Below, piece by piece: positions 2,193 to 54,554 of a stretch of DNA of 64,000 nt (the first letter of the stretch is position 1; each line of letters opens with the position of its first letter). This stretch comes from Mycobacterium barrassiae. Its GTDB lineage: Bacteria > Actinomycetota > Actinomycetes > Mycobacteriales > Mycobacteriaceae. A program made the position numbers and the translations under genes. The stretch spans positions 1-64,000 of the forward strand of contig NZ_JACKUK010000046.1 in NCBI RefSeq assembly GCF_025822765.1. The letters run 5' to 3'. A model generated the notes under the pieces. That model did no database searches. It worked only from the letters and a program-made list of their open reading frames with translations, and had not been told where the DNA came from.

Positions 2193-3059
2193 GTGGCACA
2201 ATCACCCCCAGGACAATTCGAAGCTGACCTCCGCGAGATCAAGACCGACAGGGGCACGCTTCGTTACTACGATGTTGGCGACGGGCCGGCGGTGTTGTTC
2301 CTCCACGGTTCGGGGCCCGGTGTAACGGGTTGGCGGAACTTCCGCGGGGTTCTACCCACCTTCGCCGCGCACTTTCGTTGCCTGATACTGGAGTTCCCCG
2401 GGTTCGGCGTGAGCGACGACTTCGGAGGGCACCCGATGATCGACGCTCAGGGAGCGGTTGCCCCGTTCCTTGATGCAGTGAAGATCGATCGCGTCCGGAT
2501 CGTAGGCAACTCGATGGGCGGTGGCGTCGGCATCAACTTCGCGATCAACAATCCGGACCGCATCGACAAGCTGGTGACGATCGGCGGGATCGGCACAAAT
2601 GTTTTCAGCTCCGGACCAAGTGAGGGCATCCGACTGCTGCAGGAGTTCACGGACGATCCCACCCGGCAGCGGCTGGTCGATTGGCTCAATTCCATGGTCT
2701 ACGACCAGAATCTGGTTACCGAGGAGCTGATCGAGGAGCGGTGGAAGTTGGCCACCGACCCCGAGACGTTGGCATCGGCGCGGCGTATGTACAGCAAGGC
2801 GGCGTTCGCTCAGATGATGGCGGCCATGAAAGCGGCCGATGTCCCGATGCCGTGGGCGCAGATGCACAAAGTGGCGGTTCCGACGCTGTTGACGTGGGGT
2901 CGGGATGACCGCGTCAGCCCACTGGACATGGCGCTGATCCCGATGCGGACAATTCCCAATGCGGAGCTTCACGTGTTTCCCAACTGCGGCCATTGGGCGA
3001 TGATCGAGGCCAAGGCGGCCTTCGAACGCACCGTCCTCGCGTTCTTGGCCGGCTCCTAG
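2193..3059 (+). CDS. HsaD/BphD-like meta-cleavage product hydrolase
   Basis: Alpha/beta hydrolase of the C-C bond hydrolase group (288 residues). Visible motifs are the oxyanion segment LHGSGPGVTGW (38-47), the nucleophile elbow GNSMGGG with Ser107, Asp239 in GRDDRVSP and His267 in NCGHW. This family hydrolyses the ring-opened product of an extradiol dioxygenase; HsaD does so in cholesterol catabolism. An HsaC-like dioxygenase lies at 9.1 kb, which supports that role. GTG 2193 is the only start after an in-frame stop at 2115; no clear ribosome-binding site is seen. It overlaps the convergent SDR by 4 bases. Confidence 0.85.
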   Translation: MAQSPPGQFEADLREIKTDRGTLRYYDVGDGPAVLFLHGSGPGVTGWRNFRGVLPTFAAHFRCLILEFPGFGVSDDFGGHPMIDAQGAVAPFLDAVKIDRVRIVGNSMGGGVGINFAINNPDRIDKLVTIGGIGTNVFSSGPSEGIRLLQEFTDDPTRQRLVDWLNSMVYDQNLVTEELIEERWKLATDPETLASARRMYSKAAFAQMMAAMKAADVPMPWAQMHKVAVPTLLTWGRDDRVSPLDMALIPMRTIPNAELHVFPNCGHWAMIEAKAAFERTVLAFLAGS

Positions 3060-3907
3060 CGGGTCCGCGCGTAGCGCACGAACCGCCAAAGATAGGCGGG
3101 CAGACCTAGGGTCGGTACACGGCTGGGCCAGTCATCGGACCGGAAATAGGCATCGGATCCTCCGTCGACGAAGATGACACTGCCGCAGAGGAATTCGGCG
3201 GCGTCAGACAGCATGAACTGCATCCAGTCGGCGAGCTGGTCCGGGTCGCCGTAGTGGCCGACGGGCAGCGGGAAGGATTCGACCGCCCTGGCCTCTTTCG
3301 GCGTCGCCAACTGCCTCTCCAGAAGCGGCGTCAGAATGGCGCCGGGCGCAACCACGTTGAGTCGGATGCCATTGGCGGACCAGTCGGGGGTGACGGCGAC
3401 TCTGCGCGCCCAACGTGTCACCGCGATCTTGGACGCGGCATACGCCATCGCGGGTGCAGAGCCGCCAAACAGGCGCACCGCGCGCACTGCCCGATCGACG
3501 TCGCCGGCCAGCAGCGCGCGGATCGCGCGCCGCGGTACGGCCGGCGTCGTCGTGGTCGAGTTGCTGCCGACGACCACTACCTTTGCTCCCCCGGCGGCAA
3601 GGGCGGGTCGCCATCCGCAGAGCAGGTCGACGACGCCGAAGTAGTTGACCTGATAGATGGTTCGTGACTGATCCTTGCCCGGACTCGGCCCAACACCGGC
3701 GGCAAGGACCGCGCCGTCGAGGTGTCCGCCCGCCCGCGCCAGCACCTCGGCGCATGCAGTTCGGCGTCCCTGCGGGGTGGACAGGTCGGCGGTCACTTCG
3801 GCGGCGTGCCGATCGACACCGATGACTGTGTGCCCGGCCGCCCGCACTTTCGCAGCAGTGGCGGCGCCCATTCCGGAAGCGGATCCAGTGACCGCAAAGG
3901 TTCCCAC
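3056..3907 (-). CDS. SDR resembling 3-alpha-hydroxysteroid dehydrogenase/carbonyl reductase
   Basis: NAD(P)-dependent short-chain dehydrogenase of 283 residues. The cofactor loop is TGSASGMG (7-14) and the catalytic residues are Ser115, Tyr156 and Lys160 (YAASK). An insertion of about 30 residues lies between Ser and Tyr. The same spacing and insertion occur in Comamonas 3-alpha-hydroxysteroid dehydrogenase (Ser114, Tyr155, Lys159), so oxidation or reduction of a steroid-like 3-hydroxyl is a reasonable inference. It starts at GTG 3907; TATACA seven bases upstream could be a -10 for a leaderless message. Confidence 0.75.
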   Translation of the reverse strand: MGTFAVTGSASGMGAATAAKVRAAGHTVIGVDRHAAEVTADLSTPQGRRTACAEVLARAGGHLDGAVLAAGVGPSPGKDQSRTIYQVNYFGVVDLLCGWRPALAAGGAKVVVVGSNSTTTTPAVPRRAIRALLAGDVDRAVRAVRLFGGSAPAMAYAASKIAVTRWARRVAVTPDWSANGIRLNVVAPGAILTPLLERQLATPKEARAVESFPLPVGHYGDPDQLADWMQFMLSDAAEFLCGSVIFVDGGSDAYFRSDDWPSRVPTLGLPAYLWRFVRYARTR

Positions 3908-4089
3908 GGTGGCCTGTATAAGGGCTGTCTGGGCTTATCTGGAAACAATCGTCCGCCCAGTGGGCACTGTGCGGCTTCCGCACGTTACCTGTTCGAGGAC
4001 TGGCTTCGCCTTCTCGCGACCGGACGATCGTACCCTGGAACAGGCTGGGCCAGAGCTCTTTCCGCGGTGGAAAACGCGACCTGGGTCAC

Positions 4090-4923
4090 CTACCGTTGAG
4101 TGGCACCCGCGTCCACCGGCAAGGTGACCGCGGTGATGTAACGGGCCTCGTCGGAGGCCAGGAACAGACAGGCATTGGCCACATCGACCGGCTCTACCCA
4201 CGGGATGTCGAGCATGTTCATGGTCTTCGCGGCTTCGGCGAACTCGGCCCGCGTCGGTACGCGATCCAGATCCGGGCGAAAAGCCCTCGACACCGCATCG
4301 TTCTGGATCAACGGAGTGTCGACGTTCGTCGGATGTACAGAGTTGACCCGGATGCCGTGCGGGGAAAGCTCATGAGCGAGGCTGCGCATCAGTCCCACCA
4401 CGCCGTGCTTGGCGGCCGTGTAGTGCGCAACGCCGAGCAGTCCGCGCAAGCCGGCGATGGAACTCACGAGAATGACCGATCCGGCACCGCGGGCGATGAG
4501 ATGCGGTGCGACGACCTTACAGGTGTGCCACACACCGGTGAGATTCACGTCCAGCATCGCCTGCCACGCGGCTTCGGAGAGTTCCGCTGTCGATCCGCGC
4601 GATGTGATGCCCGCAGTCGCACAAGCGATGTCGAGGCCGCCGAACGTTGCGACACCTCGGTCTACGGCGTCGCGCAATGCGTCGGTGTCCCGGACGTCGA
4701 CGATGGCCGTGATGACCCGTCCACCTGCTTCGCGGACCAGGCGCGCTGTCTCCTCGAGGTCGTCGGGCGTCGACGACGGCACGACGACGGTCTCGACGGG
4801 CGCGCAGATGTCCAGCGCGATGATGTCGGCACCCTCCTGGGCGAACCGCATCGCCTGTGCCCGTCCGATACCTCTTGCCGCGCCGGTGATCACCGCGGTC
4901 TTACCAGCGAGCCGCTGCGTCAT
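4090..4923 (-). CDS. Mycofactocin-type short-chain dehydrogenase
   Basis: SDR of 277 residues with TGAARGIGR (13-21), Ser154/155, Tyr168 and Lys172. An insertion after the second beta strand (ALDICAPVETV, then a TPDDLEET segment) is characteristic of the mycofactocin-associated SDR subfamily, whose NAD is buried and recycled by mycofactocin. Known members oxidise terpene alcohols such as carveol and other secondary alcohols. The start overlaps the upstream SDR gene by 4 bases, so the BVMO and both SDRs form one operon. The frame stays open upstream but no homology supports an earlier start. Confidence 0.85.
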   Translation of the reverse strand: MTQRLAGKTAVITGAARGIGRAQAMRFAQEGADIIALDICAPVETVVVPSSTPDDLEETARLVREAGGRVITAIVDVRDTDALRDAVDRGVATFGGLDIACATAGITSRGSTAELSEAAWQAMLDVNLTGVWHTCKVVAPHLIARGAGSVILVSSIAGLRGLLGVAHYTAAKHGVVGLMRSLAHELSPHGIRVNSVHPTNVDTPLIQNDAVSRAFRPDLDRVPTRAEFAEAAKTMNMLDIPWVEPVDVANACLFLASDEARYITAVTLPVDAGATQR

Positions 4924-5723
4924 GTCGTCTTCTGGGTCAGGCCGGCATCGACGACCAGCGCGGTGCCGGTGATGTAACGGGCGTTCTCCGATGCCAGGAA
5001 CACGGCGGCGTTGGCGACGTCCACCGACTCCACCCAAGGTACCGGTAGCAGGTTCCGGGCCGCCAGCACTTGCGCGGCATCGGCCTCGGTGGGGTGCTCG
5101 AGGTCGGGGCACAACCGTTTGTAGGTTGCCTCGTTGCGCACCATGGCCGTTGCGACTGCGCCGGGGTGCACGGTGTTGACTCGGATGCGGCGGGGGCCGA
5201 GTTCGTTGGCCAGCGTGCGCGCGAGACCGACCACCGCGTGCTTGCTCGCCGTGTAATGGGCCGTGTTGGGGGTGCCGCGTAAACCGTTGGTGGAGCTGAT
5301 GATCACCACCGACCCGCCCGATTCTCCGATGTGGGGAAGAGCCGCTTTCACCGTGTGCCAGACGCCAGTGAGGTTGATGGCGATCGTGGCTGACCACGCC
5401 TCTTCGGTGAGTTCCCATGTGGGCGCGCCCGCGGTGTGCACGCCGGCGTTCGCGATGACGACGTCAAGCCTGCCGAGTTCCGAGACCGCGTCATCGACCG
5501 CCGCTCGGATCGCCTCTAGGTCGGTTACGTCGGCGGTGGCGGCGACGCATCGCCGGCCCCGGGCAGTGACACTGCCTGCGGTCTGCCGTAATTCGTCGTC
5601 GGCGTCGGCGACGTCGAGGGCGATCACGTCGGCGCCTTCCTCGGCGAAGCGTTCACAGTGCACCCGGCCGGTGCCACGAGCAGCGCCCGTGACGACGACG
5701 ACCTTGTCGAGCAGACCGGTCAT
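4920..5723 (-). CDS. Second mycofactocin-type short-chain dehydrogenase
   Basis: A relative of its downstream neighbour: TGAARGTGR (12-20), Ser143/144, Tyr157, Lys161 (YTASK), 267 residues, with a shorter insertion after ALDV. The C-terminal halves of the two (PWVESVDVANA, RYIT, VDAG) are very alike, which suggests tandem duplication. It probably oxidises the alcohol partner of the BVMO pathway, for example to the ketone the monooxygenase needs. ATG 5723 overlaps the BVMO stop; a GTG at 5726 is an alternative. Confidence 0.8.
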   Translation of the reverse strand: MTGLLDKVVVVTGAARGTGRVHCERFAEEGADVIALDVADADDELRQTAGSVTARGRRCVAATADVTDLEAIRAAVDDAVSELGRLDVVIANAGVHTAGAPTWELTEEAWSATIAINLTGVWHTVKAALPHIGESGGSVVIISSTNGLRGTPNTAHYTASKHAVVGLARTLANELGPRRIRVNTVHPGAVATAMVRNEATYKRLCPDLEHPTEADAAQVLAARNLLPVPWVESVDVANAAVFLASENARYITGTALVVDAGLTQKTT

Positions 5724-7357
5724 CACGGGGCTTTTAGCAGGTTGAATCCCTTGTACCCGGCCGCGGCGATGTCAGCGCAGATGTCGTTGTAGGCGGCGAA
5801 TCCACCGATGAACAACATGAAACCGCGCGGCTTGCCCGGCACGTTGGCGCCCATGTACCAGGAGTTCGCCTTGGTGAACAGGGTCGCCTCGGCTCGCTGC
5901 GTGAGCTCGGCGTTCCAGTTGTCGACGGCGTCGGTGGTCGCCTCGATGGCGGTGTAGGAGTGCTCGTCAAGATGACGAATGGCGTCGGCCACCCAGTTCA
6001 CGTGTGCCTCGGCGTGCAGGACCATATTCGCCAGGACGGAGGGCGAGCCGGGCCCGGACAGGATGAACATGTTGGGGAAGCCGTCGACGCCTAGGCCCAG
6101 ATAGGTACGGGGCCCGTCTTTCCAGTTGTCGCGCAGGCTTTCACCACCTCGGCCGACGATGTCGATCTTGCCCAAGGCACCCGTCAAGGCGTCGAATCCG
6201 GTGGCCAGCACGATCGCATCGACATCGAAGTGGCTCTCCGTCGTATTGATACCCGCGGCGTCGATCGAGACGATCGGTGTTTTACGAACGCTGACCAACG
6301 TCACGTGCGGGCGATTGAAGGTCTGGAAGTAGTTGGTGTCCGTACAAATCCGTTTGGTGCCAATCGGATGATCGTTGGGGATCAGCAGCTCGGCGACCTC
6401 GGGGTCCTCGATGACGGCGCGCACCTTCTCCTCGTAGAACTTGCGAGCCTCCTCGTTGGCTTCGAGGTTGATCATCTGATCACTGAAGGTCTTCGAGAAC
6501 AGCACACCGCCGAGTTCCCAGCGTTTCTCGAAGGCGGCGCGCCGCTCCTCGGGCGTGACCTCCATGGTCAGTTTCGGGTGCGCGATATGCGGTGAGCCCC
6601 CGCCGCTGCGCCACGACAGTCGACGCCGCTCGCCGTACGTCGCCTTGATCTTCGCCATGTCCTCGGCCGTGAGCGGTTTGTTGCCCGCCGGCACGCTGTA
6701 GTTGGGAGTGCGCTGGAAGACGTAGAGCGCTTCGGCCTGTTCGGCGATGATCGGAATCGACTGGATTCCCGAGGATCCGGTACCGATCACCGCGACACGC
6801 TTGCCGGTGAAGTCGACCTCCTCGTGCGGCCAGTGCGCGGTGTGATAGACAGCGCCGGCGAAGGTGTCCAACCCCGGAAAGTCAGGCGTCAGCGCGGCGG
6901 ACAGCGGGCCGGTGGCCATCACGGTGAACCGGGCCTCGATCACCTCGCCGGCGTCGGTGCGGACGGTCCAGCGCATCGTCTGCTCGTCGAGTACCGCCGA
7001 CGTGACCTTGGTGTTGAAGGTGATGTCGCGTCGAAGATCGAGGCGGTCGGCGACCCAGTTCATGTAGCGCAGGATCTCGGCCTGGCTGGCGTACTTCTCG
7101 CTCCAGTCCCATTCCTGCTGCAGTTCCTCGGAGAAGGAGAAGCAGTAGTCCACGCTCTCCACGTCGCAGCGTGCACCGGGATAACGGTTGTGATACCAGG
7201 TACCGCCGACGTCGGGCGCCGACTCGAACACCCGCACCGACAGCCCCTGCGAGCGCAGCTTGTGCAGGGCGTACATGCCGGCGAATCCCGCACCTACGAC
7301 GACGGCATCGACCGTCGACAGCGGTGGATCCGCACGACCATCCGTGTTCGGCTTCAC
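5723..7357 (-). CDS. Baeyer-Villiger flavin monooxygenase
   Basis: Type I Baeyer-Villiger monooxygenase of about 544 residues, which inserts oxygen next to a ketone using FAD and NADPH. It has the FAD motif GAGFAG near the N-terminus, GGTWYHNRYPGARCD, the fingerprint FAGAVYHTAHWP and the NADPH motif GTGSSG. Its length matches cyclohexanone, phenylacetone and steroid monooxygenases. I chose GTG 7357 because TAATGT ends exactly seven bases before it, a leaderless arrangement; an in-frame GTG at 7366 overlaps that hexamer. It heads the operon with the two mycofactocin-type SDRs. Confidence 0.88.
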   Translation of the reverse strand: MKPNTDGRADPPLSTVDAVVVGAGFAGMYALHKLRSQGLSVRVFESAPDVGGTWYHNRYPGARCDVESVDYCFSFSEELQQEWDWSEKYASQAEILRYMNWVADRLDLRRDITFNTKVTSAVLDEQTMRWTVRTDAGEVIEARFTVMATGPLSAALTPDFPGLDTFAGAVYHTAHWPHEEVDFTGKRVAVIGTGSSGIQSIPIIAEQAEALYVFQRTPNYSVPAGNKPLTAEDMAKIKATYGERRRLSWRSGGGSPHIAHPKLTMEVTPEERRAAFEKRWELGGVLFSKTFSDQMINLEANEEARKFYEEKVRAVIEDPEVAELLIPNDHPIGTKRICTDTNYFQTFNRPHVTLVSVRKTPIVSIDAAGINTTESHFDVDAIVLATGFDALTGALGKIDIVGRGGESLRDNWKDGPRTYLGLGVDGFPNMFILSGPGSPSVLANMVLHAEAHVNWVADAIRHLDEHSYTAIEATTDAVDNWNAELTQRAEATLFTKANSWYMGANVPGKPRGFMLFIGGFAAYNDICADIAAAGYKGFNLLKAP

Positions 7358-7399
7358 ACCTGGCACATTAGGCCGCTGCTGGGCGCGGCGGGGCCGATG

Positions 7400-7445
7400 T
7401 CCCGACCACCGGACGGTGCGGCCGAGGTTTCCCGACCATCGGACG
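7400..7445. promoter_or_regulatory. Direct-repeat candidate operator between BVMO and ferredoxin operons
   Basis: TCCCGACCACCGGACG at 7400-7415 and TCCCGACCATCGGACG at 7430-7445 match at 15 of 16 bases. Their starts are exactly 30 bp apart, close to three helical turns, so a protein could bind both on one face. They lie in the 131-bp divergent gap between the leftward BVMO operon and the rightward ferredoxin-HsaA-like operon. Confidence 0.55.
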
Positions 7446-7488
7446 CGGCCGACCTCCGGCGGGCACCGATCCGTTCAACTGTCGACTC

Positions 7489-7758
7489 ATGCCGGAAGTT
7501 GAGATCGATCTGGACGGTCGGGTGCATCGGGTGACCTGTCCGAGCACCCGGACCTTGGTGGACGCCATGCTCGACGCGGGAATCGATGTCCCCCACTCCT
7601 GCCGTGAAGGCCATTGCGGGTCATGCGTCACGACCGTTGTCGAAGGCGATGTCGACATGCCTGAATGCGACCTTCTTGGCGCCGACGAACTGAGCGAGGG
7701 CTTGGTCCTCGGCTGTCAGGCCAAACCGTTGTCTGATCGTGTGCGCATCGAGTACTAA
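7489..7758 (+). CDS. Plant-type 2Fe-2S ferredoxin
   Basis: Stand-alone ferredoxin of 89 residues with cluster ligands Cys38, Cys43, Cys46 (CREGHCGSC) and Cys76. It has no flavin or NAD domain, unlike the KshB-type reductases, so it must receive electrons from a separate reductase. It leads the operon with the HsaA-like oxygenase. The most plausible partner in this window that needs a ferredoxin is the KshA-like Rieske oxygenase at 31.1-32.3 kb; that link is inferred. ATG 7489 follows a weak AACTGT hexamer six bases upstream. Confidence 0.85.
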   Translation: MPEVEIDLDGRVHRVTCPSTRTLVDAMLDAGIDVPHSCREGHCGSCVTTVVEGDVDMPECDLLGADELSEGLVLGCQAKPLSDRVRIEY

Positions 7759-7854
7759 CAGTAGGCGAGACATTTCCGCTGACCGGGATTGGCATCACCG
7801 CCTCGGGCTTGACGGTGGACCATCAAAGACAGCCATTGACGTAAGGACCAGACC

Positions 7855-9036
7855 ATGACCGAGCGGGTAATTGACCGGGTGCACGCCATCGCCGACCAAC
7901 TGCGCGAGCAGGCCGTCGAAGCGGAGAAGATCGGGCGGCTCACCGATGCCACCGTCAAGTCGATGAAGGCCGCCGGGTCGATCCGGTTGCTGCAGCCGCG
8001 GAAGTACGGCGGATACGAGGTGCATCCGCGCGAATTCGCCGAGACGGTGATGGCCACCGCGGCGCTGGATCCGGCCGCCGGCTGGATCAACGGTGTCGTC
8101 GGTGTCCATCCCTACCAGATGGCCTACGCCGATCCCCGCGTCGCCGAGGAGATCTGGGCCGATGACGTCGACACCTGGATCGCATCACCGTATGCACCGC
8201 AGGGTGTCGCCAAGCCTGTGGACGGTGGGTACATCTTCAACGGCCGGTGGCAGTTCAGCTCCGGTACCGACGCGTGCGAGTGGATCATCCTCGGCGCGAT
8301 GCTCGGCGATGCCGACGGCACACCGCTCATGCCGCCGCAGATGCTGCACATGATCCTGCCGCGCAAGGACTACGAGATCGTCGACGACTCATGGGATGTG
8401 GTCGGTCTTCGCGGTACCGGCTCCAAGGATGTGATCGTCAAAGATGCCTTCGTGCCGACCTATCGCACGATGGATGCGATGAAGGTGATGGACGGCACCG
8501 CTCAGCTCGAAGCGGGTATGACCGAGCCGCTGTACCTGATGCCGTGGTCGACGATGTTCCCGCTCGGTATTTCAGCGGCGACTATTGGTATCGCGGAGGG
8601 GGCGCTCGCCGCTCATCTGGACTACCAGCGGGAACGCGTGGGCGCCAACGGGACCGCCATCAAAGACGACCCGTACGTGATGTACGCCGTCGGTGAAGCC
8701 GCTGCAGACATCAATGCCGCGCGGCAGGAGTTGCTGGCCAACGCCGACCGCATCTACGACATGGTGGCTGCCGGCCAGGAGGTCAGTTTCGCCGACCGTG
8801 CGGCGGGACGCAGGACCCAAGTGCGCGCCGTCTGGCGGGCGGTCTCGGCCGTCGATGAGATCTTCGCCCGGTCGGGCGGTAACGCGGCGCGAATGGACAA
8901 GCCGCTTCAGCGCTACTGGCGCGATGTACACGTCGGCCAGGCACATGCGATCCACGTGCCGGGTACTGTCTTCCACGCATCGGCGCTCAGTTCGCTCGGG
9001 GTGGACCCGCAGGGTCCGCTGCGGGCGATGATCTAG
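7855..9036 (+). CDS. HsaA-like flavin-dependent aromatic hydroxylase
   Basis: Protein of 393 residues with an acyl-CoA-dehydrogenase fold, close along its length to HsaA, the 3-HSA 4-hydroxylase of cholesterol catabolism. Shared segments include LLQPRKYGGYEVHPREFAET, YAPQGVA, GRWQFSSGTD, LRGTGSKD and the C-terminal HASALSSLG. HsaA uses reduced FMN from HsaB to hydroxylate a phenolic ring to a catechol. No HsaB-like reductase is in the window. The next gene is the matching ring-cleaving dioxygenase. AAGGA seven bases before ATG 7855 sets the start. Confidence 0.88.
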   Translation: MTERVIDRVHAIADQLREQAVEAEKIGRLTDATVKSMKAAGSIRLLQPRKYGGYEVHPREFAETVMATAALDPAAGWINGVVGVHPYQMAYADPRVAEEIWADDVDTWIASPYAPQGVAKPVDGGYIFNGRWQFSSGTDACEWIILGAMLGDADGTPLMPPQMLHMILPRKDYEIVDDSWDVVGLRGTGSKDVIVKDAFVPTYRTMDAMKVMDGTAQLEAGMTEPLYLMPWSTMFPLGISAATIGIAEGALAAHLDYQRERVGANGTAIKDDPYVMYAVGEAAADINAARQELLANADRIYDMVAAGQEVSFADRAAGRRTQVRAVWRAVSAVDEIFARSGGNAARMDKPLQRYWRDVHVGQAHAIHVPGTVFHASALSSLGVDPQGPLRAMI

Positions 9037-9062
9037 ATACCGGGAGCATCCGAAGGAGCATG

Positions 9063-9980
9063 ATGACCGACACCAGCCTGCTCAAAAGCCTTGGCTATGT
9101 CACCGTCTCGACCACTGATATCGACCGTTGGCGCCAATTTGCTTTCAAGACACTCGGTTTCGCTGAAGGAAGCGGCCCCGATCCGAATGCCCTCTACCTT
9201 CGGCTCGATGAACGGGCGGCACGCATCATCATCGTGCCCGGCGACCGTGATCGTGTCATCACCGTCGGTTGGGAGGTGCGCGACCATGCCGCGCTGCAGC
9301 GGGTAGAGGCCGCACTGGACGCGGCGGGTGTGCCGTTCAAGCAACTGTCCCTCGAGGAGGCGGACGCCCGCCGCGTCGAAGAGGTCATCACCTTCGAGGA
9401 CCCCGCCGGGACGACGCTGGAGGTGTTCCATGGCGCAGTGCTCGACCACAGCCCGGTCGTCACCCCGTACGGCGCGAAGTTCGTGACAGGTGATCAGGGT
9501 CTGGGCCACGTGGTGGTGCCCGCAGTGGACGTCAACGGCTTGTTCGAGTTTTACACAGATGTCCTGGGCTTCCGGTCTCGCGGCGCGTTCCGCGTACCCG
9601 TTCCCCCGGAGTTCGGCCCGATACGCGTGCGGTTCCTCGGGATCAACGAACGACATCACAGCCTGGCGATCTGCCCGGCGGCCAGCCTCAACGATCCCGG
9701 CCTGGTCCACCTCATGGTCGAGGTGGACAGTCTCGACGCGGTCGGCCAGGCGTTGGATCGGGTGAACGCCGACGGATTCCAGCTCTCATCGACGTTGGGC
9801 AGGCACACCAACGACAAGATGGTGTCGTTCTATGTGCGCGCGCCAGGTGACTGGGACATCGAGTTCGGCACGGACGGCATGCGCGTCGACGAAACCTACT
9901 ACACGGCTGAGGAAATCACCGCCGACAGCTACTGGGGTCACCAGTGGGTCAGTGATCTTCCCGCCGCGATGCGGTCATGA
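9063..9980 (+). CDS. HsaC-like extradiol ring-cleavage dioxygenase
   Basis: Type I extradiol dioxygenase (305 residues) with two vicinal-oxygen-chelate domains. The iron ligands His149 (GLGHVVV), His216 (LVHLMVE) and Glu267 (WDIEFG) and the active-site pair His199/His200 and Tyr257 are present, matching HsaC and BphC. It should open the catechol made by the HsaA-like enzyme, giving the substrate of the HsaD-like hydrolase. Two ATGs are adjacent; 9063 has the better spacing from AAGGAG (9053-9058). Its end overlaps the next gene by 4 bases. Confidence 0.88.
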   Translation: MTDTSLLKSLGYVTVSTTDIDRWRQFAFKTLGFAEGSGPDPNALYLRLDERAARIIIVPGDRDRVITVGWEVRDHAALQRVEAALDAAGVPFKQLSLEEADARRVEEVITFEDPAGTTLEVFHGAVLDHSPVVTPYGAKFVTGDQGLGHVVVPAVDVNGLFEFYTDVLGFRSRGAFRVPVPPEFGPIRVRFLGINERHHSLAICPAASLNDPGLVHLMVEVDSLDAVGQALDRVNADGFQLSSTLGRHTNDKMVSFYVRAPGDWDIEFGTDGMRVDETYYTAEEITADSYWGHQWVSDLPAAMRS

Positions 9981-11449
9981 CGCCGGTAAATCCAGCCGAC
10001 GTCACCCCGGTGTCGGCGTCGGAGGTCACGTCCTGGGATCACGAAGCCGACGTGGTCATCGCCGGCTACGGAGTGGCCGGGGCCGCAGCGGCGGTGGAGG
10101 CCGCCCAGGCCGGAGCCGAAGTGTTGGTGCTAGAACGCACCGGCTCCTGGGGCGGCGCGGCTGCGATGGCAGGCGGGTTCATCTATCTCGGCGGTGGCAC
10201 CCCGCTGCAGAAGGCCTGTGGCTTCGAGGATTCCGTCGAGAACATGACAGCGTTCCTCAACGTCGCGATGGGCCCGGGCGCCGACGAGCACCGGATCGCC
10301 GACTACTGCGCGGGTAGCGTCGCGCACTTCGAATGGCTCGTCGACTGCGGCGTGCCGTTCAAGGCCGAGTTCTTCGGTGAACCCGGTTGGGAGCCGATGG
10401 GCGATCAGGGCCTGATGTATTCCGGCGGCGAGAACTCCTATCCGTTCAACACCATTGCCACCCCGGCCCCGCGCGGGCATGTTCCGCAGATGTCGGATAA
10501 GAAGCAGGGCGAGGCCAGCGCCGGGTTCATGCTGATGAAGCCTCTGGTGGACACCGCGACGGCGGCCGGCGTCCGCGCCGTGTACGACGTCCGCGTGCAA
10601 TGTCTGATCACAGAATCCGACGGCCGAGTCGTCGGTATGCGTGCGCGCCGCTACGGGAACGAAATCAACGTCCGGGCCCGCAGGGGCGTGGTGCTGGCGA
10701 CGGGCAGCTTCGCCTACAACGACGCGATGGTGGCGCAGTACGCGCCGCGGATCGCCGGCCGACCCGCCGCCGCTATCGAGCAACACGACGGTCAGGCGAT
10801 CCGGATGGCGCAGGCACTGGGTGCCGACCTCGCCCATATGGACGCCACCGAGGTCGCCATCTTCATCGATCCGCAGCAACTCGTGCGCGGCGTGCTGGTC
10901 AATGAACGCGGTCAGCGCTACGTCGCCGAGGACACCTATCCGGGTCGCATCGGACAGCTCACGCTGTATCACCAGAACAACACCGCATACCTGATCATCG
11001 ACGGCGACGCACAGGAGGAAGCGATGGCGTCGCTGTCGCCGCAGATGATGATGCGCCCGCCGACCTGGGTCGCCGAGACCGTCGCCGACCTCGAGGCCGA
11101 AATCGGGCTGCCGCCGGGGGCGCTGCAGGCGACAGTCGCCGCCTTCAACGAAGGCGCTGCCCGGGGCGAAGACCCGCTGCTGCACAAGAAGGCGGAATGG
11201 CTGCGTCCGATCGGCTCACCCGTCGGCGCCATCGACCTACGCGAGAGCACCGGCGGGTTCACGCTCGGTGGCCTGCACACCACGCTGGACGCGGAGGTCT
11301 TGCACGTCAACGGCGAACCCATTCCGGGTCTGTTCGCCGCGGGTCGATCCACGGCAGGTCTTGCCGCATGGGGTTACGCCAGCGGTGTGTCGCTGGGCGA
11401 CGGCAGTTTCTACGGCCGCCGGGCGGGCCGCTCGGCAGCAAAGGGCTGA
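9977..11449 (+). CDS. FAD-dependent dehydrogenase of the fumarate reductase/KstD superfamily
   Basis: Flavoprotein of 490 residues with the dinucleotide motif GYGVAGAAAAVEA near residue 31, GGAAAMAGGFIYLGGG, and a C-terminal FAD segment ending AAGRSTAGLAAWGYASG. It is distantly related to 3-ketosteroid delta-1-dehydrogenases but lacks the KstD-type GGST-SGG segment seen in the gene at 32.4 kb, so its substrate is open. It overlaps the dioxygenase gene by 4 bases and ends the operon. Confidence 0.75.
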   Translation: MTPVNPADVTPVSASEVTSWDHEADVVIAGYGVAGAAAAVEAAQAGAEVLVLERTGSWGGAAAMAGGFIYLGGGTPLQKACGFEDSVENMTAFLNVAMGPGADEHRIADYCAGSVAHFEWLVDCGVPFKAEFFGEPGWEPMGDQGLMYSGGENSYPFNTIATPAPRGHVPQMSDKKQGEASAGFMLMKPLVDTATAAGVRAVYDVRVQCLITESDGRVVGMRARRYGNEINVRARRGVVLATGSFAYNDAMVAQYAPRIAGRPAAAIEQHDGQAIRMAQALGADLAHMDATEVAIFIDPQQLVRGVLVNERGQRYVAEDTYPGRIGQLTLYHQNNTAYLIIDGDAQEEAMASLSPQMMMRPPTWVAETVADLEAEIGLPPGALQATVAAFNEGAARGEDPLLHKKAEWLRPIGSPVGAIDLRESTGGFTLGGLHTTLDAEVLHVNGEPIPGLFAAGRSTAGLAAWGYASGVSLGDGSFYGRRAGRSAAKG

Positions 11450-11812
11450 GCCTCTCGTAGCCGTGCTTCTGTCGTAGCCGTACCGAAAACGTGCACGGCT
11501 AGAACCCGGGTGCCCGTCGCGAGCATCCGTGCGAAGGATTCGACACGCCGGGCTGCGGAGCGCGTCGCCGACCCGAGATAACGCTTCGTCGACCCTCGAT
11601 GATGCCGATGGCGCACGCGTGAACGACGCGACGATGCACCGACCTGCCCAGATGGCGCTCGTCGCCACCCCTGGCCTGCCTCATCACCGCGACGAGAAAT
11701 CAGAAGTCACTGAGCGCGGCGGTGTCGGTGCCTGTGGGGGCGCACATATTTCCGCAAGCTGTGTGACAGCGCGCACAGGCATGTGGTAGAACATCATTAT
11801 TCCTATTAGTCA
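11450..11812. other. Intergenic stretch with a possible terminator, no gene seen
   Basis: Nearly 400 bases separate the FAD dehydrogenase from the IclR gene. TAGCCGTGC (11458-11466) and GCACGGCTA (11493-11501) form a 9-bp inverted repeat just after the stop and may terminate the upstream operon. Between 11502 and 11790 I see only short frames with no recognisable protein or codon bias. The last part becomes AT-richer towards the IclR gene and probably holds its promoter. Confidence 0.5.
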
Positions 11813-11848: not shown

Positions 11849-12688
11849 ATGACAACGACAGTCGAACAACCCACCCCGAGTGCCGTGATTGATCGCGTCT
11901 CGCTGGTCCTCGATGCCTTCGACGGACCGGGCCGGCTGACCCTCGCCCAGATCGTCCGCCGCACCGGCCTGCCTCGCTCCTCGGCTCACCGCATGCTCGA
12001 GCGCCTCGTCCAGTTGCGCTGGCTGCGCCGCAACGGCCGCGACTACGAGCTCGGAATGCGACTGGTGGAACTCGGCTCGCTCGCCGTGCACCAGGACCGC
12101 ATGCACCGCGCAGCCATCCCACTGCTGCACGACCTGCACCGCGCCACCGGCCTCGTCGTCCATCTCGCGGTGCTCGACGGGTCCGACGTCGTGTACCTCG
12201 AGAAGATCGGCGACAGGATGACCACCGCCATCCCGACCCGCGTCGGCGGCCGCCAACCCGCACACTGCGCTGCGGTCGGCAAGGCGATACTCGCTGATAC
12301 CCAGTCATCGGACACGGTCGATCTGTCGGCGGGGAAGACGAAGTACTCGATAAGCACCCCGGCTCAGCTCAACGCCGAGTTGGCTCGAGTCCGCGCCCAC
12401 GGTGTTGCCTTCGACAAGGAGGAATCGTTGGCCGGATTCGGTTGTGTGGCAGCACCTATCGGCAGCCCCGGCGAGGCCGTCGCCGCCGTGTCGGTATGCG
12501 GTCCCATGAACATGATGAAGTTCGACCAGCGACTGGTCGCACCGGTCCGGATGACGGCCATGGGGATCTGGCGCAACATCGAGGGCGGACCGCAGCTGGT
12601 CGCGCCGACGCTGCAGCAGGTACGTCCCCTGCGCGGCCGGCCTGTGCCGCGACCGGTGCGGGAGACGGCAGCGTTGCAGTACGCATGA
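11849..12688 (+). CDS. IclR-family transcriptional regulator
   Basis: 279 residues with an N-terminal winged helix-turn-helix (about 15-75; LAQIVRRTGLPRSSAHRMLE is the recognition region) and a C-terminal effector-binding domain (AHCAAVGKAILA, FDKEESLAGFGCVAAP). IclR proteins commonly control catabolic operons in response to a pathway intermediate. It overlaps the following esterase by 4 bases and so is co-transcribed with it. The dyad at 11813-11827 suggests it controls its own operon; other targets in this cluster are possible but I found no second exact copy. Confidence 0.88.
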   Translation: MTTTVEQPTPSAVIDRVSLVLDAFDGPGRLTLAQIVRRTGLPRSSAHRMLERLVQLRWLRRNGRDYELGMRLVELGSLAVHQDRMHRAAIPLLHDLHRATGLVVHLAVLDGSDVVYLEKIGDRMTTAIPTRVGGRQPAHCAAVGKAILADTQSSDTVDLSAGKTKYSISTPAQLNAELARVRAHGVAFDKEESLAGFGCVAAPIGSPGEAVAAVSVCGPMNMMKFDQRLVAPVRMTAMGIWRNIEGGPQLVAPTLQQVRPLRGRPVPRPVRETAALQYA

Positions 12689-13626
12689 CACAAGATCTCG
12701 ATCCGCAGATCGCCGAGCTGATCGAGCAGCTCGACTCGGGATTTCCACCCGTTCATACGATGACGGGCGCGCAGGCTCGCGCCGTCATCAAGTCCAGGTT
12801 CGTCCCGTCGCCCCAACCCGAGCCGGTCCACGAGGTCAGCGATCAAAAGATCGGCGGGCCTGGGGGTGACATCGCCGTGCGTGTCTACCGTCCCGACGGC
12901 GCAGGACTGCCGATCCTGGTGTTCGCTCACGGGGGCGGGTGGGTGTTCTGCGATCTGGACAGTCACGACGGCCTGTGCCGAGATCTCGCCAATCGAATTG
13001 GGGCCGTGGTGGTTTCAGTGGACTATCGGTTGGCCCCGGAACATCCATGGCCCGCGGCCGCCGAAGATGTCTACGCCGTGGTGACGTGGGCGGCGGACAA
13101 CGCATCGGCACTCGGTGGTGATCCGGCCCGCATCGTCGTCGGCGGCGACAGCGCAGGCGGCAACCTGGCGGCAGTCACCGCGCTGATGGCACGTGATCGC
13201 AATGGGCCCGCGTTGGCGGGCCAGTTGCTGTTGTACCCGGTCATCGCCGCCGACTTCGACACCGAGTCATACCGGCTCTTCGGAAGCGGCTACTACAACC
13301 CCCTCGAAGCGTTGCAGTGGTATTGGGATCAGTACGTCCCGGCGTTGGTCGACCGCGCGCATCCATACGCCGCTCCCCTGCACGGCGATCTGCATGGACT
13401 TCCTCCTGCGGTCATGGTGATCACCGGGCATGACCCATTGCGCGACGAGGGAATTGCTTATGCCCGGGCATTGCGGGATGCCGGTGTTGCAGTGAGTGAA
13501 TGCTCGTATGTGGGCGGGGTGCATGGCTTCATGACCATGCCGATGCTGGACATCGCCGGGCGAGCGCGCGCTGAGGTCAGCCGTGAAGTCGCGCGACTGG
13601 TTGGGGCAGCTCGGCCGGTGGATTGA
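12685..13626 (+). CDS. HSL-family (LipN-like) carboxylesterase
   Basis: Alpha/beta hydrolase of the hormone-sensitive-lipase family, 313 residues. It has HGGGW (82-86), GDSAGG with nucleophile Ser156, Asp250 (GHDPLRDEG) and His280 (GGVHGF). It probably hydrolyses a soluble ester or lactone, which would suit a pathway with two Baeyer-Villiger enzymes making esters and lactones; that is inference. ATG 12685 overlaps the IclR stop. The last 50 bases overlap the convergent reductase gene in antisense. Confidence 0.85.
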   Translation: MTQDLDPQIAELIEQLDSGFPPVHTMTGAQARAVIKSRFVPSPQPEPVHEVSDQKIGGPGGDIAVRVYRPDGAGLPILVFAHGGGWVFCDLDSHDGLCRDLANRIGAVVVSVDYRLAPEHPWPAAAEDVYAVVTWAADNASALGGDPARIVVGGDSAGGNLAAVTALMARDRNGPALAGQLLLYPVIAADFDTESYRLFGSGYYNPLEALQWYWDQYVPALVDRAHPYAAPLHGDLHGLPPAVMVITGHDPLRDEGIAYARALRDAGVAVSECSYVGGVHGFMTMPMLDIAGRARAEVSREVARLVGAARPVD

Positions 13627-14830
13627 CGGGTCCGGCGACCGCGCCATACCGCTGTTCGGGATCCAGCACGCAGTGGGTGCGCCCGAAAACCGTCACCATG
13701 CACTTGTTGTTGTGGGTGCACCGACTGCGAACCGAACTGTCGGCGATCATCTTGTTGACCAGATCGGGCTCACGGAGCAATGCACGGCCCATCGCCATGT
13801 AGTCGAAGCCCTCGGCCGCAGCGGTTTCCAGGTGACCGCGGTTGGTGATGCCGCCCAGTAGAACCAGTTTGGTGTTGGTCATCACGGGGACGAACTGCCG
13901 CGCCGCGGGCAGCATGTAGAGGTCCTCGTACGGATAGGAACCCATCGCCCGCTTGCCCATCAGCCGTACTGCCGGCCTCATCGCAGGTGGCATCACCGTC
14001 GCGAATTCCTTCACCGGGACGTCGCCGCGGAACAGGTACATCGGCTTGAACACCGACGACCCCTGGGTCAGCTCGATGGCGTCGAGATGGCCGTCGGCAT
14101 CGAGCAGTTGCGCGGTGCGCAGCGCCTCGTCGATCCAGATGCTGCCGGGTAGCCCGTCGTCCATATCGAGTTTGGCGATCACCGCGATCTGGTTGCCTAC
14201 CACCTCACGCACCCGTTGAGCGATTTCACGCACCAACCGCGACCGGTTGTCGATGTTGCCGCCGTAGCGGTCCTTGCGGCGGTTGATCAGCGGGCTGAGG
14301 AAGGAGCTCGGCAGGTACAGATGTCCGAAATGCAACTCCACCGCGTCGAATCCAGCGTCGATGGCGACCTGTGTCGCTGCGGCGAACTGGTCGATGACTG
14401 TCGCGATCTCGGCGAGGGTGATCGCCCGGCAGTAGGCGAACGACGTCGGGTTGACGAACCGGCTGGGCGCCACCGCGGTGACGCCGGTGAGCTTCTTCGG
14501 AGCGACGACGCCCGCGTGCCCCAGTTGGGCCGAGATCGCCGCCCCCGCACCGTGTACGGCGTCGGCGAGTCGGCGCAAACCGGGCAGGGCGGCCTGGCTC
14601 ATGACGATCTGACCGGGTGCGCTGGCACCTTCGGGTGACACGCAGCAGTACGCGACGGTGGTCATCCCGACGCCGCCCTCGGCGAACGACAGGTGAAAGT
14701 CGATCAAGTCGTCCGTGACCAGGCCATCGGGTGAACGTCCCTCCGACGTGGCGGCTTTGATCACGCGGTTGCGTAGCGTCACCGGCCCGAGTCGGGCGGG
14801 CAGCAGCGGGTCGTGCGCTTCTGCGCTCAT
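13577..14830 (-). CDS. Old-yellow-enzyme-type NADH:flavin oxidoreductase
   Basis: FMN-binding TIM-barrel oxidoreductase of 417 residues, with LPARLGPVTLRNRVIKAA at the N-terminus, SAQLGHAG, FLSPLINRRKDRYGG and FDYMAMGRALLREPDLV. Family members reduce activated C=C bonds of enones or dienoyl-CoAs. CTHNNKCM near the end recalls the cysteine cluster of the iron-sulfur members, but the extra domains of 2,4-dienoyl-CoA reductase are absent. ATG 14830 follows GACAGT by six bases, a possible leaderless start. It shares 50 bases of antisense overlap with the esterase. Confidence 0.82.
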   Translation of the reverse strand: MSAEAHDPLLPARLGPVTLRNRVIKAATSEGRSPDGLVTDDLIDFHLSFAEGGVGMTTVAYCCVSPEGASAPGQIVMSQAALPGLRRLADAVHGAGAAISAQLGHAGVVAPKKLTGVTAVAPSRFVNPTSFAYCRAITLAEIATVIDQFAAATQVAIDAGFDAVELHFGHLYLPSSFLSPLINRRKDRYGGNIDNRSRLVREIAQRVREVVGNQIAVIAKLDMDDGLPGSIWIDEALRTAQLLDADGHLDAIELTQGSSVFKPMYLFRGDVPVKEFATVMPPAMRPAVRLMGKRAMGSYPYEDLYMLPAARQFVPVMTNTKLVLLGGITNRGHLETAAAEGFDYMAMGRALLREPDLVNKMIADSSVRSRCTHNNKCMVTVFGRTHCVLDPEQRYGAVAGPVNPPAELPQPVARLHG

Positions 14831-14930
14831 CCGCTTACTGTCACTGGGCTGTGGAACCTGGTCAACGGCATCTCCCGGTGGCCGGGACCGCGCGCGAAGG
14901 TGTCCGCGGCAGCTACCTAACCTTGGTGGC

Positions 14931-15278
14931 ATGGCCGAACCCGTGGTGTTCGTCGTCGATCGGGTCGTCACGGCGCCCGGCTGCGCCAGGCAGTTCATCG
15001 ACCGGTATCTCGCCGAGTACGCCCCTGGCGCGCGTGAGCGTGGGATGACGCTGCGCGACGTCCTCGTCAGTCCCCCCATCTGGTTCGACGACCGGCCCAA
15101 CACCGTGACGATCACCTGGACGCTGCCGAGCGCACAGGCGTGGTGGGAGATGACATGGCAGGGCAGGCCAGACCCCACGCTGGGCCAGTGGTGGGCGCAG
15201 ATCGACGAACTGGTCAGCGAACGCAGCAGGACCGTCGCCGCCCCGGCCGCCGAGGTGGACGGACTCTGCGATGTTTAG
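14931..15278 (+). CDS. Small conserved protein, probable ferredoxin-like fold (NIPSNAP-like)
   Basis: 115 residues, unrecognised beyond its general look. Alternating strands and helices (VVFVVDRVVTAPG, FIDRYLAEYAPGARERGM, TVTITWTLPSAQAWWEM) suggest a dimeric alpha-beta barrel such as NIPSNAP or EthD. TAACCT seven bases before ATG 14931 gives a leaderless start, which is why the longer open frame upstream is not used. Its end overlaps the next gene by 8 bases, so the two are probably co-translated. Confidence 0.7.
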   Translation: MAEPVVFVVDRVVTAPGCARQFIDRYLAEYAPGARERGMTLRDVLVSPPIWFDDRPNTVTITWTLPSAQAWWEMTWQGRPDPTLGQWWAQIDELVSERSRTVAAPAAEVDGLCDV

Positions 15279-15946: not shown

Positions 15947-16834
15947 TCAGAGCCCGGCAGGCAGAATATTGGGGTTGGCGTTGGCGGGCGGTTCCAGGGG
16001 CGGCAGCATCGACCGGCCGTCGAGTGAGTGCACCTCCAGCTTCTGCGACCACGGATAGTGCAGGCTGAACGCCACCAGCCCGGTGCGTTGCTCCGCAGGC
16101 AGATGACACATCGCCAACACCGTCTCCGCGAGATACTCCACCGGCTCTGTGGGAAACGTCTCCGGGATCAAGCTTGCGGCACCTGGTGTGCGCACGGCGG
16201 TCGACGGGCCGACACAGTTCACGGCAATGTTGTCGTCGAGCAGTTCGGCCGCCACCCCCTGGGTGAACCTGTGCAATGCCGCCTTCATCGACGCATAGAT
16301 GACGTCGCCAGAGGTCTTGTTGTACTCCCGGTATGGGCGCACCGGGGCGACTCCGGTCACCGAGCCGATGTTGACGATCCAGCCGGCACCCTGTTTACGC
16401 ATATGCGGTACAGCCGCTTTGGTCAGCACAAACGGCGTCCGCAGATAGTGCTCGACAGTCCGGTCGAAGGTATCCAGTGACATCTCCTCGACCACGGAGT
16501 AGTCCGCGAAGCCGGCATTGTTCACCAGGATGTCGATGCGCCCCGTGCGATCGAGCACGGTGTCGACGAGGCGGTCGCGGGCCTGTGCATCCTCGAGGTC
16601 GGCGGCGACACCGAAGGCCGAACCGCCGGCCTGCTCGATCAGCGCAATCGTCTCGCCGATGGTGCCCGGGACGGCCGTGGCGACTCCGCCGCGGACCGAT
16701 GTCGACGGCTGATATGCCCGTGCGGTCACCGCCACGGTGGCGCCTTCGGCCGCCAACCGTTGCGCAATCGCCCGGCCGATACCGCGGCTGCTACCGGTCA
16801 CCAGGGCCGTTTTGCCGCTTAGCAATTGGGTCAT
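15947..16834 (-). CDS. Short-chain dehydrogenase paired with a Baeyer-Villiger enzyme
   Basis: NAD(P)-dependent SDR of 295 residues with TGSSRGIG (13-20), NNAG (105-108), Ser158, Tyr180 and Lys184 (YASMK). There is a longer loop before Tyr and a C-terminal extension. Its ATG overlaps the BVMO stop by 4 bases, so it is the second gene of that operon. It may supply or consume the ketone used by the monooxygenase. Confidence 0.8.
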   Translation of the reverse strand: MTQLLSGKTALVTGSSRGIGRAIAQRLAAEGATVAVTARAYQPSTSVRGGVATAVPGTIGETIALIEQAGGSAFGVAADLEDAQARDRLVDTVLDRTGRIDILVNNAGFADYSVVEEMSLDTFDRTVEHYLRTPFVLTKAAVPHMRKQGAGWIVNIGSVTGVAPVRPYREYNKTSGDVIYASMKAALHRFTQGVAAELLDDNIAVNCVGPSTAVRTPGAASLIPETFPTEPVEYLAETVLAMCHLPAEQRTGLVAFSLHYPWSQKLEVHSLDGRSMLPPLEPPANANPNILPAGL

Positions 16835-18762: not shown

Positions 18763-18864
18763 GACATCGATTATCGAAGCCACTCAGGCCCCTCGGCACC
18801 ACGCCGCCTACTCAGCGGGACACGACCCGACCGTTGCTGCGACGGCCCGCCTACCGTGACCAGA

Positions 18865-20442: not shown

Positions 20443-20455
20443 AGGGAATACAACT

Positions 20456-21562: not shown

Positions 21563-21611
21563 CCAAACCGAGACACCCTGACCAAACCGAGACACCCTGA
21601 CAAACCGACAC
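21559..21611. repeat. 19-bp tandem repeat, about 2.7 copies
   Basis: CTGACCAAACCGAGACACC occurs exactly at 21559-21577 and 21578-21596, then a degraded third copy with two deletions follows. The first unit contains the alcohol dehydrogenase stop codon, and the array fills most of the gap to the aldehyde dehydrogenase. Confidence 0.9.
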
Positions 21612-21625
21612 GGAAGAAACCCCAC

Positions 21626-25996: not shown

Positions 25997-26060
25997 CCGG
26001 CGTTCCACTGACCGGGCACGTGCGCTGTCAGACTCGTCACCCCGCGGTTGACTCGCAGGC

Positions 26061-26540: not shown

Positions 26541-26543
26541 CAG

Positions 26544-28372: not shown

Positions 28373-28405
28373 CCCGGCGATTGCCATCCCGATCACCGGA
28401 CAACT

Positions 28406-28423
28406 CACCACCGCAAGGTGGTG
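28406..28423. terminator. Hairpin after the esterase gene
   Basis: CACCACC-GCAA-GGTGGTG is a perfect 7-bp stem with a tetraloop, 33 bases after the esterase stop and 48 bases before the next start. It has no U-tract, so it could be a terminator, an attenuator or an RNA-stability element. Confidence 0.5.
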
Positions 28424-28471
28424 ACGCTACGCACAATCAAAAGCAACCAAGCACCGCAGAAGGAGACACAG

Positions 28472-29548: not shown

Positions 29549-29590
29549 CGACTGCGGCAGTGAATGCCGCCGACCCTAGGAGTGTGCGCG

Positions 29591-34104: not shown

Positions 34105-34113
34105 CCGCGGCGC

Positions 34114-34788: not shown

Positions 34789-34789
34789 C

Positions 34790-54541: not shown

Positions 54542-54554
54542 CTGTCGCCTCCTA

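Follow-up and report, generated by a model that had tools for sequence, protein, structure and literature searches.

Introduction

The island treated here lies at one end of contig C46 (NZ_JACKUK010000046.1) in the 5.9-Mb genome of Mycobacterium barrassiae, and was analysed within a window of 64,000 nucleotides (C46:1-64000) whose base 1 is the contig end. Its closest described counterparts are the C-19+ steroid clusters, of which that of Mycolicibacterium smegmatis was reportedly described by Fernandez-Cabezon et al. in 2018. Mutations in PadR reportedly switch on this M. smegmatis cluster. Published accounts place a homologous cluster in M. neoaurum, present the cluster as necessary for the efficient use of androstenedione (AD), androstadienedione (ADD) and 9-hydroxyandrostenedione (9OH-AD) (PMC5962712), list its genes as kstD2, kstD3, kshA2, kshB2, hsaA2, hsaC2 and hsaD2 (PMC6351609), and term its substrate “yet unknown steroid compounds” (PMC6593523). 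In two further papers, R. jostii cluster 2 and clusters of R. erythropolis and M. smegmatis form a third subclade of unknown function (PMC4810484), and MSMEG_2870 (KshA), MSMEG_2893 (KshB) and MSMEG_2867/2869 (KstD) are tabulated with no KstR operator and no clear induction (PMC5270728).

For progesterone, a 2025 paper describes the pdc cluster of Caenibius tardaugens, consisting of a Baeyer-Villiger monooxygenase (BVMO), a luciferase-like monooxygenase and two regulators, whose BVMO channels progesterone towards 9,10-seco degradation (PMC12239570). The same text reports that the steroid monooxygenase STMO of R. rhodochrous turns progesterone into testosterone acetate, with lactonisation of androstenedione not observed, and states that progesterone catabolism in R. 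rhodochrous, the source of the solved progesterone BVMO, has not been described (PMC12239570).

Judged by its gene content, the island is a variant of the published C-19+ clusters and not a separate kind of system, a comparison that rests on published descriptions and gene order, with the presumed likeness to Bergstrand's third subclade taken from description. Like the M. smegmatis cluster it carries a second HsaA, HsaC and HsaD together with KshA and KstD, and the KshA-KstD-PadR group is also present (31147-34989); the absence of KstR operators at the M. smegmatis KshA, KshB and KstD genes, as tabulated (PMC5270728), is a further likeness. The island is set apart from C-19+ because no full-length KshB2 was found, a Fer2-only ferredoxin standing where the C-19+ cluster lists kshB2, and because a progesterone-type BVMO is built in. 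It also has one clear KstD, and its importer lies at the hsaD end, whereas in the published M. smegmatis order an mce group (MSMEG_2854-2865) lies by the KstD gene MSMEG_2867. The pdc cluster shares the principle of a BVMO entry step and differs in its enzyme, which is given as 30.4% identical to STMO (PMC12239570). Plasmid pRHL1 of strain RHA1 carries an HsaA at 69% identity with KshA, HsaC2, HsaD2, KstD, IclR and PadR homologues, but has a full KshB2-like protein before KshA and no BVMO1 in the 41 kb read. What goes beyond print is the link of such clusters to a progesterone-type BVMO.

Proposed pathway

We lean towards reading the island as a co-regulated system for the catabolism of C21 20-keto steroids (progesterone and related pregnanes), not of cholesterol. 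From kinships, synteny, a repeated motif and a ferredoxin-only KshB2, all seen in the sequence, we infer a substrate, an order of steps, electron partners and a motif-binding regulator. The order BVMO, esterase, short-chain dehydrogenase/reductase (SDR), KstD/KshA and HsaA/C/D is proposed because of the reactions of the named families, those of the Hsa and Ksh enzymes being general knowledge. An Mce importer would take up the steroid, and SDRs would oxidise its hydroxyl groups. BVMO1 would then insert oxygen between C17 and C20, turning the 20-ketone into a 17-beta-acetate, from which the IclR-linked esterase would remove the acetate, leaving a 17-hydroxyl for a mycofactocin SDR to oxidise to the 17-ketone. 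KstD and KshA2, the latter supplied with electrons through a free ferredoxin from an unlinked reductase, would open ring B and form a phenol, which HsaA2 would convert to a catechol, its reduced flavin being supplied by HsaB of the canonical locus or by some other reductase. HsaC2 would cleave the catechol (ring A) and HsaD2 would hydrolyse the product, with HsaE-G and the ring C/D enzymes being common to the cholesterol pathway. The genes concerned are the following.

212-1072, minus: YrbE/MlaE-type permease of an Mce lipid importer; Pfam MlaE 188 bits; homologues at 80-91% stand beside hsaD2 in several named loci.
1176-2021, minus: second YrbE/MlaE permease; Pfam MlaE 190 bits.
2193-3059, plus: HsaD2, predicted meta-cleavage-product hydrolase; NF045632 278 bits, below cut-off; top solved match M. 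tuberculosis HsaD.
3056-3907, minus: SDR of coniferyl-alcohol-dehydrogenase/3-alpha-HSD type; NF009092 125 bits, below the cut-off of 242.
4090-4923, minus: mycofactocin-coupled SDR 1 (mfSDR1); TIGR03971 383 bits, scored on the longer frame 4090-5418; start set by hand.
4920-5726, minus: mycofactocin-coupled SDR 2 (mfSDR2); TIGR03971 320 bits.
5723-7366, minus: BVMO1, STMO-type Baeyer-Villiger monooxygenase; close kinship to solved STMO and an FxGxxxHxxxW fingerprint (FAGAVYHTAHW).
7489-7758, plus: 89-residue [2Fe-2S] ferredoxin; Pfam Fer2 64 bits; resembles the C-terminal Fer2 domain of KshB, reductase domains absent.
7855-9036, plus: HsaA2, predicted flavin-dependent phenol hydroxylase; NF045629 374 bits, below cut-off.
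9060-9980, plus: HsaC2, predicted extradiol catechol dioxygenase; NF045631 379 bits, below cut-off.
9977-11449, plus: FAD-binding dehydrogenase of the KstD/flavocytochrome c superfamily, PRK07121-type; NF005512 981 bits, above the cut-off of 812.
11849-12688, plus: IclR-family regulator; TIGR02431 118.5 and NF045644 116.5 bits, both below cut-offs.
12685-13626, plus: esterase, hormone-sensitive-lipase (HSL) type of the LipP1 family; NF058653 393 bits, above the cut-off of 350; HGGG and GDSAG motifs; ATGA overlap with iclR.
31147-32298, minus: KshA2, Rieske oxygenase of 3-ketosteroid 9-alpha-hydroxylase (KSH); 69.0% over 368 aligned residues to 4qdf_B, which we take to be KshA5.
32392-34104, plus: KstD, 3-ketosteroid delta-1-dehydrogenase; NF009479 1060 bits, above the cut-off of 793; solved KstD matches.
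34114-34989, minus: PadR-family regulator; Pfam PadR 36.7 bits, above 27.

The island is single and spans approximately 0.2-37.6 kb of the window. An earlier note on part of it (2193-11449) had described a second set of HsaD-, HsaA- and HsaC-like genes, two mycofactocin-type SDRs, a Baeyer-Villiger enzyme and a 3-alpha-HSD-like SDR. These genes are all present: both mycofactocin-type SDRs exceed the TIGR03971 cut-off of 300 bits, the Baeyer-Villiger enzyme is a type I BVMO, and the last protein is an SDR whose name is uncertain, its best match being the coniferyl-alcohol-dehydrogenase subfamily. A mycofactocin maturase gene lies on contig C34 of the same genome, and the mycofactocin-type SDRs therefore make sense. 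That note had missed the ferredoxin gene in the 488-bp gap 7367-7854, the FAD protein straight after hsaC, the esterase gene whose ATG lies inside the iclR stop, and the KshA-like Rieske protein, KstD and PadR at 31-35 kb. One KstD equivalog (NF009479) is counted in the island, the FAD protein at 9977-11449 sharing its superfamily.

The Hsa-like proteins score below the equivalog cut-offs of the NCBIfam steroid models (HsaD 278, HsaA 374 and HsaC 379 bits against 400, 450 and 450), and the HsaC-like protein exceeds the cut-off of the BphC model TIGR03213 (383 versus 366 bits). Among solved structures HsaA2 matches the hydroxylase 2or0, presumably of RHA1 origin, at 570 bits and the HsaA entry 2rfq at 310 bits. 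Aligned to solved HsaC (2zi8), HsaC2 retains His, His and Glu at what we take to be the metal-ligand positions.

Linkage of an STMO-type monooxygenase to HsaA2

BVMO1 shares 64.9% identity over 530 residues with the solved R. rhodochrous STMO (PDB 4aos) and 52.2% over 536 with phenylacetone monooxygenase (PAMO). Using the STMO residues as printed in the HMMER alignment as a query, we found a protein in stretch L138 of genome G523 that is identical at 530/530 residues, and for this reason G523 is probably R. rhodochrous. The same 20 kb as this STMO gene hold homologues of mfSDR1 (59%), mfSDR2 (58%), KshA (60%), HsaA2 (62%), HsaC2 (74%), IclR (61%), PadR (44%), KstD (36%) and the SDR sdrC (42%), with KshA adjoining HsaA2 there. 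KshA5 was considered as the KshA of this locus and rejected, the identity being 65.6%.

The linkage extends beyond R. rhodochrous. Among the top 47 non-Mycobacterium genomes by BVMO1 match (63-70% identity, 12 genera), 36 have an HsaA2-type gene within 20 kb of the BVMO1-type gene, these 36 representing 10 of the 12 genera, and the number rises to 38 at 35 kb, while HsaA proteins of the 41-44% class, taken as canonical, lie within 35 kb of the BVMO in none of the 42 genomes where they are listed. KshA, HsaA2, HsaC2, IclR and PadR occur together in nine of the 10 linked regions that were read (L144 ends too early); the same regions contain BVMO1 within the stretch in nine, a KstD-like protein (36-43%) in seven, HsaD2 (45-73%) in four and a lipase-like protein in five.

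This linkage bears on a competing explanation, that the island is a plain C-19+ cluster for androgens (androstenedione, ADD, testosterone), in which BVMO1 would convert the 17-ketone to a lactone or have some unrelated role. The gene set and the KshA-KstD-PadR order do fit the C-19+ cluster and its role in AD, ADD and 9OH-AD use as published (PMC5962712, PMC6351609), and loci L046 and L067 have HsaD2-A2-C2 with KshA and KstD and no BVMO1. However, the repeated association of an STMO-type BVMO with HsaA2-type genes across genera, the failure to observe androstenedione lactonisation by STMO (PMC12239570) and a linked esterase suited to an acetate-ester intermediate all argue against an androgen-only role, which we consider unlikely, if deserving of serious attention.

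A second alternative, in which the BVMOs open a ring of a bile acid or of some polycycle that is no steroid, such as a plant triterpenoid or diterpenoid, appears improbable. It draws on the top NCBIfam model of BVMO1, pentalenolactone D synthase, on the second BVMO, Old-yellow-enzyme-type (OYE) reductase, acyl-CoA ligase and dehydrogenase genes of the island, and on pRHL1, which holds the closest named HsaA relative in the plasmid search (69%) and whose A/B-ring cluster is called most similar to the cholate pathway (PMC4810484). The pentalenolactone D synthase match is, however, far under its cut-off (281 versus 1100 bits), STMO is a much better match to BVMO1, no thiolase or side-chain aldolase was found among the window proteins scanned, and a KstD over its equivalog cut-off together with a KshA-type Rieske protein argues against a non-steroid.

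Two plasmid loci are also of note. Stretch L148 (R. erythropolis R138 plasmid pLRE138, 18759-28857) has a compact run of KshA, HsaA2, HsaC2, BVMO, hydrolase, SDR, SDR and BVMO2, similar in kind to the island. In L149 (a Streptomyces sp. NBC_00080 plasmid, 4863-11751) an HsaA-like hydroxylase gene (55% to HsaA2) and a flavin reductase come right after the mycofactocin biosynthesis genes mftA-F.

Relation to the cholesterol regulon

The island seems to stand outside the KstR cholesterol regulon and is apparently under separate control. The same genome has a canonical hsa locus (contig C7, stretch L127) with the same reaction types, the island proteins being 51% (HsaC), 39% (HsaD) and 40% (HsaA) identical to it; the canonical HsaC scores 551.5 bits against 378.6 for that of the island. 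The suggestion of a second set is thus borne out, and the possibility raised with it, that these were the organism's only hsa genes, falls away. The canonical locus has KstR-type boxes, HsaB and a full KshB, and the island has none of these. Scans for KstR-type and KstR2-type boxes found none within the island, the sole KstR-type match in the window being at 47918, whereas L127, as a positive control for the KstR scan, has boxes at 10492 and 14366. Conversely, the operator-like motif of the island has no copy in L127. This pattern of boxes supports the dedicated second pathway proposed in the earlier note.

The reliance on shared downstream enzymes is likewise supported. The sole HsaB match over cut-off in the genome lies on C7 beside canonical HsaC, with none on C46, and HsaF-type aldolases over cut-off occur on C26 and C42 only. 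HsaE and HsaG were absent from the NCBIfam matches listed for window proteins (genes to 46.3 kb), a genome-wide search for them not having been made. As to the polycyclic substrate other than cholesterol that had been suggested, a place outside the KstR cholesterol regulon holds up, but an unusual polycycle is not needed given KstD and the KshA-type Rieske protein; because these two share the island, the 3-ketosteroid 9,10-seco pathway is the simplest reading.

Ferredoxin in the KshB2 position

Over 84 residues the ferredoxin and the C-terminal Fer2 domain of canonical KshB share 50% identity. The gene is divergent from BVMO1 and precedes hsaA2, and in relatives this position holds either a full KshB2 or a ferredoxin alone. 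Stretch L025, itself without BVMO1, is an example of the full form, with FAD, NAD and Fer2 domains. Classed by hand, 30 tree rows are full and 29 ferredoxin-only, with a further 32 rows being neither. On an HsaA2+HsaC2 tree built by a quick method there are four changes between the two states when the 32 neither-rows are left out, and 13 changes for ferredoxin-only and seven for full when they are included; the count of changes cannot separate gain from loss.

The ferredoxin-only form looks maintained under purifying selection and not decaying, because its cysteine motif is intact in 28 of the 29 sequences (the remaining one, L053, being a split hit) and because the 28 sequences, aligned with MAFFT after L053 was dropped, have no stops and a low dN/dS (median 0.206, maximum 0.51, 368 pairs). 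These values also bear on the idea that the cluster is decaying, with the ferredoxin-only KshB2 and the scattered genes as signs of lost function. In its favour, 29 of the 59 classed rows have a KshB2 lacking the FAD and NAD domains, but the intact motif and low dN/dS speak against it, as do the open core frames of the window and the conservation of the operator-like motif in relatives, and we regard decay as very improbable. Elsewhere in the genome, C7 carries the canonical KshB, and a homologue of nearly full length (39%) lies at C16:143748. The ferredoxin-only KshB2 offers a chance to test how a fused reductase may split into separate proteins.

A shared operator-like motif

Blocks upstream of hsaA2 are conserved in relatives. 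A motif of pattern TYCCRNYNAYCGGR was derived by comparing promoters within the window. It has seven sites in the window, of which five shaped the pattern and only those at 2138 and 14874 were found afterwards, against 0.48 expected, and none of 100 shuffles reached seven.

2138-2151, minus: operator-like site TTCCGCTGATCGGA, between the importer (yrbE) genes and hsaD2.
7400-7413 and 7430-7443, plus: two operator-like sites between BVMO1 and the ferredoxin.
7774-7787, plus: operator-like site in the ferredoxin/hsaA2 interval, upstream of hsaA2; block conserved in relatives.
14874-14887, minus: operator-like site between the OYE gene and a plus-strand frame from ATG 14931.
26003-26016, plus: operator-like site upstream of the SnoaL-SDR-lipase genes.
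28387-28400, plus: operator-like site upstream of the 376-residue gene (u376).

The motif matches 251 times in a set of 84 mycobacterial stretches that includes the window and totals 1.67 Mb; 188 of the matches lie upstream of homologues of window genes, 17 elsewhere and 46 inside genes, 22 of these last in the OYE frame and 19 in hsaC2. By gene, a motif site is present at 57/71 loci for BVMO1, 59/81 for hsaA2, 27/60 for hsaD2, 10/13 for snoal1 and 8/12 for yrbE_b. In other genera a near-perfect palindrome precedes BVMO1 in L137, L141 and L145, and a single match lies upstream in L142; in L146 the motif lies downstream of BVMO1, in L138, L139 and L143 it occurs away from BVMO1, and L140 and L144 lack it. 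Among the inspected loci without BVMO1, L046 and L067 have the motif near hsaA2 or hsaD2, the sole match of L043 falls inside hsaC2, and the motif is absent from L056, L060 and L070. We suggest that the motif-bearing units form one regulon, with IclR or PadR as candidate regulator. A looser AACNAG-type pattern gave 14 matches against 4.2 expected at one mismatch, most of them intragenic, and was not used.

Distribution among mycobacteria

HsaC2 matches occur in 244 of 396 Mycobacterium-genus genomes and BVMO1 matches in 234, at thresholds of E<=1e-130 for HsaC2, out of reach of a weaker class (~1e-85 to 1e-97, canonical HsaC), and 1e-225 for BVMO1. Uncorrected for kinship, 214 genomes have both, 30 HsaC2 only, 20 BVMO1 only and 132 neither. 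Where both positions were compared (30 genomes), the two genes lie within 8 kb in 28 and on different contigs in two.

Gene order was counted in 80 named mycobacterial loci out of at least 569 confirmed. In these, hsaA2 is immediately 5' of hsaC2 wherever there is room to see (78/78), the homologue of the FAD gene (9977-11449) comes straight after hsaC2 in 75/79, the esterase is right behind iclR in 56/70, and of the 75 loci with at least 4.2 kb upstream, 66 have BVMO1 no more than 6 kb upstream of hsaC2 (37/75 at a 4-kb cut). In genome G298 nearly the whole island, from the importer through to PadR and including KshA-KstD-PadR, recurs with its gene order kept across some 53 kb.

Duplicated arrangements were also seen. 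M. europaeum (L042/L046) and Mycobacterium sp. 4858 (L066/L043) each have two hsaD2-A2-C2 loci, one with an STMO-type BVMO and one with KshA/KstD and no BVMO. In some mycobacterial genomes there is a pair of BVMO1-type genes separated by roughly 9-10 kb, at 79-82% and 76-77% identity to BVMO1 (G004:C1:3173367 and 3183087; G053:C45:390108 and 380005; G092:C17:36275 and 45444).

Weighing the progesterone reading

Several observations weigh against the assignment to C21 20-keto steroids. An identity of 65% to STMO does not fix the substrate, and the published role of the C-19+ cluster is with C19 steroids. No HsaD2, esterase or YrbE match was found in the 20 kb of L138, dnaJ-/dnaK-type genes adjoin its STMO-identical gene and lie between it and the KstD-like gene (L138 2692-6412), and its single strict motif match falls inside the HsaC2 stretch. 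Linkage within 20 kb fails in 11 of the 47 genomes, nine of them also at 35 kb or with the genes on other contigs. BVMO1 is missing from the part of pRHL1 read, from nine of the 75 named loci and, at the threshold used, from 30 of the 244 genomes with HsaC2, while 20 genomes have it without HsaC2. Five of the motif sites helped to define their own pattern, and none of the seven lies at KshA, KstD or PadR. Finally, BVMO2, the acyl-CoA ligase, alcohol and aldehyde dehydrogenases (ADH/ALDH), hydratase, dehydrogenase pair, OYE and SnoaL proteins are not accounted for by the route; their role may be in the breakdown of different side chains or of rings C/D.

A wider proposal is more tentative, and we put its chances a little short of even: that the C-19+/“third-subclade” clusters of Mycobacterium and related genera are at root progestogen (C21 20-ketosteroid) regulons, with an STMO-type BVMO, an esterase, KshA/KstD, HsaA2/C2/D2 and one palindromic operator of approximately TCCCGGTSACCGGGA, and that only the ferredoxin part of the KSH reductase has apparently survived in several lineages of mycobacteria, so that the 9-alpha-hydroxylase would have three components and take its reductase from elsewhere. 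If true, this would provide a natural substrate for clusters labelled “C-19+” or without assigned function, and would bear on the removal of hormones from sewage and soil and on steroid-producing strains whose clusters consume product. The synteny offers a concrete gene set for the R. rhodochrous progesterone pathway and for the mycobacterial HsaC2/BVMO1 orthologues; among the titles and abstract openings searched, none was found that ties STMO to such a cluster.

Other features of the window

The remaining genes of the island are the following.

13577-14800, minus: OYE-type reductase; profile match starts near 14800.
15947-18783, minus: SDR (15947-16834) and a second, longer BVMO, BVMO2 (16831-18783); BVMO2 fingerprint FAGTSIHSAQW.
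18856-25996, plus: acyl-CoA ligase, Zn-ADH, ALDH, enoyl-CoA hydratase and two acyl-CoA dehydrogenase-like subunits.
26061-30022, plus: SnoaL-like protein, SDR, second LipP1-like lipase, 376-residue protein and SnoaL-like protein.

The OYE gene probably starts near 14800 and not at 15178, because the profile match begins there and because the first ~83 codons of the longer frame, which are antisense to a plus-strand frame, are kept in relatives without OYE. That small plus-strand frame (14931-15278, ~115 residues) lies antisense to the over-long OYE frame, and its DNA is kept in the same kind of relatives. The 376-residue protein (28418-29548), with an operator-like motif upstream, has no NCBIfam or Pfam match and is 81-87% identical to homologues in L035, L053 and L130.

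To the right of the island follow housekeeping-type genes (DegV, octT, phosphatase, rsfS, nadD). Further on, at 54414-59492 of the window, there are long plus-strand open frames whose codon-position G+C, high at the second position, differs from that of most other genes; they may be the non-coding strand of a gene rich in G+C.

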